NCBI GenBank assembly: GCA_016183065.1
Contig: JACPFF010000014.1
Location: 1 to 42,110, forward strand
DNA length: 42,110 nt
Reading direction: 5' to 3'
From: Deltaproteobacteria bacterium
Lineage (GTDB): Bacteria > UBA10199 > GCA-002796325 > JACPFF01
Shown: one piece after another, positions 3,384-7,809 of the stretch
How the letters are laid out: the number at the start of each line of letters is the position of its first letter
How positions within the stretch are numbered: position 1 is the stretch's first letter
Notes under the pieces: generated by a model
Seen by the model: only the letters and a program-made list of their open reading frames with translations
What the model was told of the DNA's origin: nothing
The model's database searches: none
Made by a program: the position numbers and the translations under genes

Positions 3384-4631
3384 TTAGCTGGACTTTCTCC
3401 GTGGTTGACGACGGTCACCGCGTCCGCACTGGCAGGCCGCAACAAACTGGTCGAAGATCCCGGCGCTATCGTGAGGGCCCGGGCTCGCCTCGGGATGATA
3501 CTGGACGGCAAAGTGCGGGGCATCGGTCGCGCAAAAGCCCTCGACCGTCCCATCGTTCAGGTTCACATGCGTCACGGTGAGTCCTGCGGGGAGCGAATCG
3601 GGATCGACGGCAAAACCGTGGTTTTGCGAGGTGATCGCCACTCGCCCCGTGGCGACGGTTTTCACCGGCTGATTGGCCCCATGATGCCCAAACGGGAGTT
3701 TATACGTGCGGCCTCCCACTGCCAACGCCATCAGTTGATGACCGAGACAGATCCCCAACGCCGGCCGGCGCGGGAGGAGCGCACGGACCGTGGCAATGGC
3801 ATAATCGACGGCGGCCGGATCTCCCGGACCGTTGGAAAAGAGGCACCCATCCGGATCTGTGGCCAGGATGGCTTTCGCCGGGGTCGTGGCGGGCCAGACC
3901 GTGACCTGACAGCCGCGCGCGACGAGTTCGCGAAGGATATTCTCCTTGACGCCAAAATCGAGGACGGCAATGCGCACGGCCCAGCCGCACAGCGGCGCTG
4001 GGGGGGGGATGGCGACGACCGAGTCCGGGGACCCGCGAAGCGGGTGGACGAGGAAGTACCCGGAGGCGGAGCCGCAGGGTACGTGAGCCCCTCCAATAGT
4101 CGTGACATGGTTCCACGGCCCTTCGGTCCACGCTGTCGGCGTCCGGCGCGTCACGTCGCGTACCAGCTCCTGGCCGCTCATGCCGGGGAGCGCGGCCGCA
4201 CGGGCGATGACGGTCCCGGGATCGACGGCGTGGGTCGTGAGCATGGCAGGCATGGCACCGGCCCGACGGATGGTGCGCGTGACCGTGCGGGTATCGACCC
4301 CCTCGATGGCCACAATCCCGTGCTGCTTGAGATACCGGTGCAGGGGTTGCGTGGCCCGCCAATTGCTCGGCATGGAGCAATAATCCCGCATGACCAGACC
4401 GCGCACCCACGGGCGGCGCGATTCCATGTCTGCGGGATTGACCCCGACATTGCCGATATGAGCGGCGGTAAAGACGACAATCTGTCCACTGTACGACGGG
4501 TCCGTGATGACTTCTTGATAGCCGCTCATTCCCGTCTGAAAAACCACCTCGCCCGCGACTTCCCCGTCGGCACCGATCGAGAGACCCGAAAAAATTGTTC
4601 CGTCAGCCAGAACGAGCCATGCGGGCTTCAT
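3384..4631 (-). CDS. carA: Carbamoyl-phosphate synthase small chain (glutaminase) carrying an in-frame repeat insertion
   Basis: CarA hydrolyses glutamine and channels ammonia to CarB. The start is the ATG at 4631, giving [11 protein letters not shown] with GGAG upstream; it overlaps the pyrC 3' end by 29 bases. The N-terminal domain (residues 1 to about 175) and the class I glutamine amidotransferase domain are intact, with the nucleophile Cys in GICLGHQL and the His/Glu pair in YHPEASPGP. The protein is about 415 residues, whereas E. coli CarA is 382. The excess lies in the linker between the domains, about residues 178-207. It is encoded by a copy of a palindromic repeat also found intergenically at 7703-7788. 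A C9 run (4000-4008 on the plus strand) follows the insert. The activity is probably preserved, because the insert avoids both folded domains. Confidence 0.95.
4010..4092 (-). repeat. Palindromic dispersed repeat, copy A, inserted in frame in carA
   Basis: Read on the minus strand, this begins AGGGGCTCACGTACCCT and ends GGTCGTCGCCA. The first 51 bases match 7703-7753 with two mismatches, and the last 24 bases match 7765-7788 exactly. The middle differs in length (8 versus 11 bases). It is rich in inverted repeats: GTACCC...GGGTAC enclosing GGC-TCC-GCC, and ACCCGC-GAA-GCGGGT. With its flank CTATTGG (to 4099) the segment is 90 bp, or 30 codons with no stop, which accounts for the extra length of CarA. 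Confidence 0.85.
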
Positions 4632-7589: not shown

Positions 7590-7615
7590 TTTCAGACGGA
7601 GGAATTGTCACTATT

Positions 7616-7700
7616 ACAGGGGCTCACGTCGCCCCCCCAACGGGCCAAGCCCGTTGGGTCCCCCCCTCGCGCGCGCGGGGCGCGCTGGAAAACGGCTCCC
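7616..7700 (+). repeat. Divergent partial member of the palindromic repeat (B')
   Basis: This starts with ACAGGGGCTCACGT, the same 14 bases that open copy B 85 bases further on, then diverges. It contains a perfect 9-bp stem, CCCAACGGG and CCCGTTGGG, with loop CCAAG at 7636-7658, followed by GGGTCCCCC, which echoes the stem and GGTCCCC of copy A. It looks like a relative with a different core, arranged head to tail with copy B. Confidence 0.5.
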
Positions 7701-7702
7701 AC

Positions 7703-7788
7703 AGGGGCTCACGTACCCTCCGGCTCCGCCTCCGGGGACTTCCTCGTCCACCCCGCGTCGCCCCGGTCCCCGGACTCGGTCGTCGCCA
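7703..7788 (+). repeat. Palindromic dispersed repeat, copy B, intergenic
   Basis: This is the intergenic counterpart of the copy inside carA, in the opposite orientation. It shares AGGGGCTCACGTACCCT at the start and GGTCGTCGCCA at the end. The central hairpin seen in copy A is degenerate here (CCACCCCGCGTCGCCCCGG). It lies between the 3' end of the M20 peptidase gene (7810) and the pyr promoter. Together with B' it fills most of the 7444-7809 gap, in which I see no gene. Confidence 0.8.
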
Positions 7789-7809
7789 CTCGTCCCTCCG
7801 CAGGTTGTA

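Follow-up and report, generated by a model that had tools for sequence, protein, structure and literature searches.

The carA Gene and Its Insert

The window, by which we mean the whole stretch of 42,110 nucleotides analysed here, contains a carA gene that carries a copy of a dispersed hairpin repeat in frame and, between genes, a second copy of the same repeat (Table 1). Both Pfam domains expected of CarA, CPSase_sm_chain and GATase, were found in the encoded protein, which is 48–61% identical to its relatives. E. coli CarA aligns to it in two blocks, 2–174 and 221–400, and the interdomain linker comprises 46 residues in the window protein versus 17 in E. coli, about 29 extra, while the CarA of G001 (same family) is shorter by about 30 residues at the insert; these comparisons confirm the roughly 30 additional linker residues given in a preliminary description of this DNA.

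Table 1. Features of the carA copy and the intergenic copy of the repeat in the window.
Feature	Position	Strand	Basis
carA, carbamoyl-phosphate synthase small subunit, 415 aa (host gene)	3384..4631	-	translation, Pfam, relatives
In-frame repeat copy in carA, 126 nt, about 42 codons	~3975..4100	-	about 100 genomic copies; ends by copy comparison
Left end of the element in carA, ACTATTGGAGGGGCTCACGT	4081..4100	-	left-end pattern
Two-hairpin core in carA	4016..4081	-	covariance model R1: 86.5 bits, E 6.7e-18; covariation
Stem 1 of the carA core	~4058-4080	-	
Stem 2 of the carA core	~4023-4049	-	
Right-hand module remnant in carA, CCCAGCGCCGCTGTGCGGCTGGGCCGTG	3975..4003	-	follows the core in other copies too
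Left part of the intergenic copy (left end CTATTACAGGGGCTCACGT; hairpin CCAACGGGCCAAGCCCGTTGG with GC-rich tail)	7611..7680	+	left-end match 7613-7629
Intergenic copy, second unit with core, inverted partner of the carA copy	7703..7790	+	51 nt at 96%; R1 match

The two copies share a 51-nt match with two mismatches (4042–4092 versus 7703–7753), followed in both by an exact 24-nt block, GGTCCCCGGACTCGGTCGTCGCCA. Both observations stand as first made, but the orientation of the pair is inverted, with the copies on opposite strands. Covariance model R1 matches the intergenic copy at 7714–7782 with 67.2 bits. In carA the element runs from the left end through two hairpins to a shortened right-hand module, and the 90 bp originally assigned to the insert is too short because the right-hand module remnant, CAGCGCCGCTGTGCGGCTGGGCCGTG, belongs to the element.

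The linker sequence is not shared with related CarA proteins, the insert being absent from all 22 aligned relatives (plus a whole-genome search). CarA linkers do vary in length among relatives, and one might picture a linker peculiar to the lineage, its likeness to the repeat being due to chance or composition; this reading is refuted by the 93–99% DNA identity of the carA copy to dozens of dispersed copies over about 88 nt, together with pattern controls that exclude chance, and its probability is next to nil.

Copy Number and Modular Make-up in the Host Genome

The host genome (G000) is a 1.97-Mb draft in 30 contigs and is 89% complete. BLAST searches with the carA copy returned at least 47 matches in it, and among the longer matches listed identities are mostly 91–98%, with flanks that are unrelated between copies. 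Pattern searches found the 3′ part of the core, CCGGACTCGGTCGTCGCC, 106 times versus five times for the reversed control, and the left end 165 times versus 13 in the control; the covariance model gave 103 matches. In all, the core is represented about 100 times and the left end about 150 times, and the many further copies that BLAST and the covariance model turned up include some inside genes.

The repeat has a mosaic build, in which GC-rich hairpin modules are grouped about a conserved two-hairpin core of 68 nt. Its copies combine a left end with a first hairpin of either of two types, the core, additional hairpins (for example CTCCAGCGGCAAAGCCGCTGGAG and GCGCGCGGTGCGCGC) and, as right end, GTGGGGCCCCAC; some modules are tandemly duplicated. 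In pneumococcal BOX elements, too, the internal modules vary. The terminal repeats are about 15 nt long and imperfect (left, GGGGCTCACGTACCC; right, reversed, GGGGCCCCACGACCC), and no target duplication was seen at the flanks of the copies.

Structure and Distribution of the Core

The structure of the core was aligned in 23 sequences from MAGs with four different phylum labels. Stem 1 is built from ACCC/GGGT or GGTT/AACC, a TNC/TNC internal loop and an inner GC stem of three pairs; a linker, ACTTCCTC, leads to stem 2, which has closing GTCC/GGAC pairs, inner ACCC/GGGT pairs and a four-base bulge, NCCC, and the core ends in a TCGGTCG tail. Conserved unpaired blocks are also present in the alignments. 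In the 23 sequences 96.5% of pair cells are paired and nine of the 15 pairs are changed on both sides, a level of covariation reached by none of 500 shuffles. A wider set gathered with the model, which includes some training sequences and whose alignment leans towards the model, has 97.7% of cells paired and double changes in 13 of 15 pairs. The same compensations, such as GTCC/GGAC, GGCC/GGCC and GCGC/GCGC, appear in a model-free alignment of 17 sequences that had not been used in model building. The core therefore covaries within and across phyla, and it is covariation among copies and species, not energy, that shows its structure: the folding energy of the carA copy alone is no better than that of shuffles (z -0.84).

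Exact pattern searches of a named genome collection placed the core in MAGs of Chlamydiae, Elusimicrobia, Omnitrophica and Deltaproteobacteria (G001 and G002 are Deltaproteobacteria by their depositors' label). By the covariance model, 18 of the 46 genomes from the host's class contain it, at 1–11 copies elsewhere versus about 100 in G000, and at E 0.01 there were 14 matches in the Chlamydiae genome, 18 in the Elusimicrobia genome and four in the Omnitrophica genome, the weakest of which are doubtful. Only seven of 248 genomes in the phylum of the Elusimicrobia MAG have a match at E 1e-6, so the model is specific and the distribution patchy. Core copies in the Elusimicrobia MAG (L126/L169) and the Omnitrophica MAG (L132/L170) lie within open frames of putative genes. 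The element was not found in plasmids and phages by BLAST or in viral contigs by pattern search. Rfam, searched with permissive thresholds, returned nothing beyond chance matches, and a description of the family was found neither there nor in the literature searched, in agreement with the initial suggestion that it may be undescribed.

In the Chlamydiae MAG (L165, L171, L177, L183) and in G001 (L032) the core sits within a larger palindromic shell, either CTCCCCTTA...TAAGGGGAG or TTAAGGGGGAG...CTCCCCCTTAA, unlike the shell of G000. Both core copies of G001, L032 and L034, directly adjoin tRNA genes.

The strong covariation across phyla, the conserved unpaired blocks and the mostly intergenic position of the copies are what one would expect if the core were a functional structured RNA, regulatory or terminator-like, that has multiplied in the host genome and whose in-gene copies are by-products. 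However, copies between tandem genes keep no fixed orientation (31 versus 32), presence is sporadic (18 of 46 genomes in the class, 7 of 248 in another phylum), and one genome has about 100 copies against 0–11 in relatives. On these grounds a mobile element fits better than a conserved regulator, and we regard the regulatory reading as unlikely, although both can be true.

Copies Inside Genes

Gene context was sampled in about 378 kb of stretches around matches, with gene calls from simple coding potential and with open frames required of in-gene copies. By this classification most copies are intergenic, and 19 of 120 classified host copies lie inside genes, 15 of the 19 in the gene's orientation, while those in gaps between tandem genes have no preferred orientation. 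All three sense frames are open in 73–77 of 79 copies (at least 92%), the antisense frames in 14–43 of 79. Because the sense frames are nearly always free of stops, a sense insertion is tolerated when the net change in length is a multiple of three. The usual sense frame of in-gene copies reads TIGGAHV...LVHPLRG.PDSVVAT, and the copy in an esterase gene is read in another frame.

Six in-gene cases were compared with homologues: CarA, MurF, phytoene/squalene synthase, PyrE, AcpS and a YbfF-type esterase. The MurF insert is absent from 23 of 23 aligned relatives and follows directly on the P-loop helix, a position that is not obviously harmless. In the phytoene/squalene synthase a single Pfam match (profile 2–263) spans the 47-residue insert, and in PyrE, AcpS and the esterase homology flanks the insert on both sides, some second halves matching weakly. 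CarA and MurF are thus joined by several more conserved proteins in having an in-frame copy that is missing from their relatives. Coding potential alone places further copies in a LysM/transglycosylase protein, a cupin, FliG (near the N-terminus), a fatty-acid-synthase-like protein with two inserts and proteins of unknown kind. The spanning open reading frames C15:220617 and C15:311875 and the IS200 remnant C8:66050 were set aside as being intergenic, spurious or pseudogenic.

Two loci may be recorded in more detail. A ribonucleotide reductase gene (L009, G000:C3:10641-13742), again a case from coding potential, has an intein-like insert that contains an in-frame antisense copy; sequence derived from the element also occurs at its C-terminus. 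At G000:C8:65820-66180 (L134) two copies in tandem truncate an IS200-like transposase gene, which illustrates disruption of a gene by the element.

With a draft of 30 contigs, some of which (C3, C23, C26) end in repeat copies, the fusions could in principle be assembly artefacts in which unrelated contigs were joined at repeats. In several genes, however, a copy links the two parts of one protein in frame, which repeated misjoins could not do, and we consider such an artefact very improbable. It is also conceivable that the insert is missing from the mature protein through RNA excision, translational bypassing or protein excision, given that essential enzymes are affected, in MurF right behind the P-loop helix, and that the segment is structured. 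Against this, the inserts keep an open frame and frame-preserving net lengths, neither of which excision or bypassing would need, and no intron- or intein-like motif and no Rfam intron match was found. Moreover, the predicted folds of CarA and MurF accommodate a loop, AlphaFold2 giving residues 175–211 of CarA and 145–198 of MurF as almost entirely low-confidence loops between confident domains, and a guanylate kinase bearing a Rickettsia palindromic element (RPE) is translated and active (PMC2229807). Removal of the insert is therefore quite improbable, if less so than misassembly.

Taken together, a dispersed structured element has very probably inserted into carA in frame and is translated there. 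The original proposal that a structured repeat from between genes now codes for part of an essential enzyme, in the manner of RPEs, is supported, its translation being predicted from the sequence. The carA copy most likely contributes about 42 disordered residues to the protein, placed between its N-terminal and glutaminase domains. The peptide is most likely neutral or mildly costly, and no function need be assumed for it.

The CarA Linker as a Landing Site

In eight of 22 related CarA genes the linker DNA forms hairpins with 8–11 perfect pairs, where random segments of those genes average about 4–6. The carA linkers of G026 (L047, G026:C33:3003) and G036 (L048/L265, G036:C77:4788) contain a different dispersed repeat, GTAGGGGCGNCCCTTGGCGCGCCC, with 16 matches in G026, eight in G036 and none in the control, which is apparently a GTAG-type REP read in frame. 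Since two other genera carry an unrelated repeat there, the CarA linker is, as far as sequence comparison goes, a recurrent landing site for unrelated palindromic repeats. Other perfect hairpins of 8–11 pairs were noted in the carA linkers of the further relatives (L059, L054, L057, L060, L068 and L051), and these possibly represent yet other repeat families.

Relation to Known Repeat Families

We know of no sequence match between the hairpin repeat and RPEs. The latter (Ogata et al., 2000) are 100–150 bp long, and some lie in open reading frames without breaking the frame (PMC3767692). The hairpin repeat resembles them as a dispersed structured element of about 100–150 bp, a range into which the 126-nt carA copy fits, that occurs between genes and in frame within conserved genes (PMC3767692; PMC2229807), inserts in tolerated loops and, like RPEs, has no known mobilising enzyme. 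It differs in having two adjacent short hairpins and variable modules, where an RPE has one long stem-loop with terminal inverted repeats; in its named hosts, which are MAGs of Deltaproteobacteria, Chlamydiae, Elusimicrobia and Omnitrophica rather than Rickettsiales; and in that the tag of RPE-4 and RPE-6 is not conserved. The repeat thus works like an RPE but, judged by structure and host, is probably not one.

CGTC-tagged REPs (Di Nocera et al., 2013), which include RPE-4, RPE-6 and Neisseria dRS3 (PMC3733652), are similar in that a GC-rich hairpin follows CGTC in G000 and in being dispersed, sometimes intragenic and without a known dedicated transposase. In those REPs, however, the tag (CGTC, TGTC or CCTC) is unpaired, whereas GTCC of the hairpin repeat pairs with GGAC and covaries to GGCC/GGCC and GCGC/GCGC; because CGTC is part of a covarying stem, it becomes CGGC, CGCG and others across the wider family. 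CGTC-tagged REPs have an 8–9 bp stem starting with A-T pairs, a loop of 4–5 nt and an unpaired CCA tail (PMC3733652), in contrast to four closing and at least four inner pairs, a four-base bulge, no CCA tail and an obligatory second hairpin. Membership in this family was rejected, as the tag covaries as part of a stem and both stem and tail differ.

With GTAG REPs and their RAYTs (PMC3733652) the repeat shares dispersal, mosaic BIME-like groupings and plausible recognition as a single-stranded hairpin, but it lacks the GTAG tag and its core was near none of 27 Y1 loci. Like the MITEs ERIC, NEMIS and RUP (PMC2229807), it is non-autonomous, with defined ends, in a size range of about 90–400 bp, and its open frames fuse to genes as those of ERIC and NEMIS do; unlike them, it has imperfect terminal repeats of about 15 nt and no target duplication seen in its flanks. 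The preliminary description knew of no such in-gene family outside a few lineages. A restriction of this behaviour to few lineages is not supported: REPs of the GTAG and CGTC families are reported within genes of several species, O. terrae, Thauera and R. conorii among them (PMC3733652), and in-frame gene fusions have been reviewed for ERIC, NEMIS and RPEs (PMC2229807).

How the Repeat May Move

The carA segment is best explained as a single member of a dispersed, non-autonomous repeat family. No full-length parent element with a transposase was found, no transposase gene was recognised by eye between closely spaced copies, and there were no core matches in the 27 Y1 loci (about 3 kb each). 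Three core-bearing genomes show no Y1 gene, and one host Y1 gene is cut short by a repeat copy. Separately, a Y1-transposase element was observed at L133 (G000:C2:1756), with G000:C23:23008 and C24:132069, its ends being GGGTACGTCATACG.../...CGTATGACGTACCC; short relatives of it are seemingly nested within copies of the hairpin repeat.

We propose a trans-acting enzyme that would recognise the core in its folded form, whether single-stranded DNA or RNA, and insert copies at many sites. Most insertions within genes would be purged, and the survivors would be those in which the frame is kept and the protein tolerates a loop at that point, the copy then being translated into a disordered loop. 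That such a hairpin-recognising enzyme acting in trans mobilises the repeat is a proposition we consider evenly balanced.

Implications

Rickettsia and Wolbachia are the best-known sources of protein-coding palindromic repeats. The repeat described here is an apparently undescribed family outside their ancestry, with about 100–150 copies in 2 Mb and several housekeeping genes affected, and for these reasons it allows the conversion of selfish repeats into protein to be tested independently. The cross-phylum covariation of the core points to recognition by a conserved factor, and makes it testable by what means REP-like elements lacking a dedicated transposase are moved. In its fullest form our reading, for which we see the case as standing about halfway, is that one two-hairpin core defines a new structure-recognised mobile family, served by an enzyme not yet known and passed horizontally between uncultured bacteria in several phyla, which in at least one lineage would be a continuing source of new sequence in essential enzymes, in linkers also hit by unrelated palindromic repeats. 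The finding also calls for caution, in that the loops of conserved proteins in MAGs can contain repeat-derived sequence.
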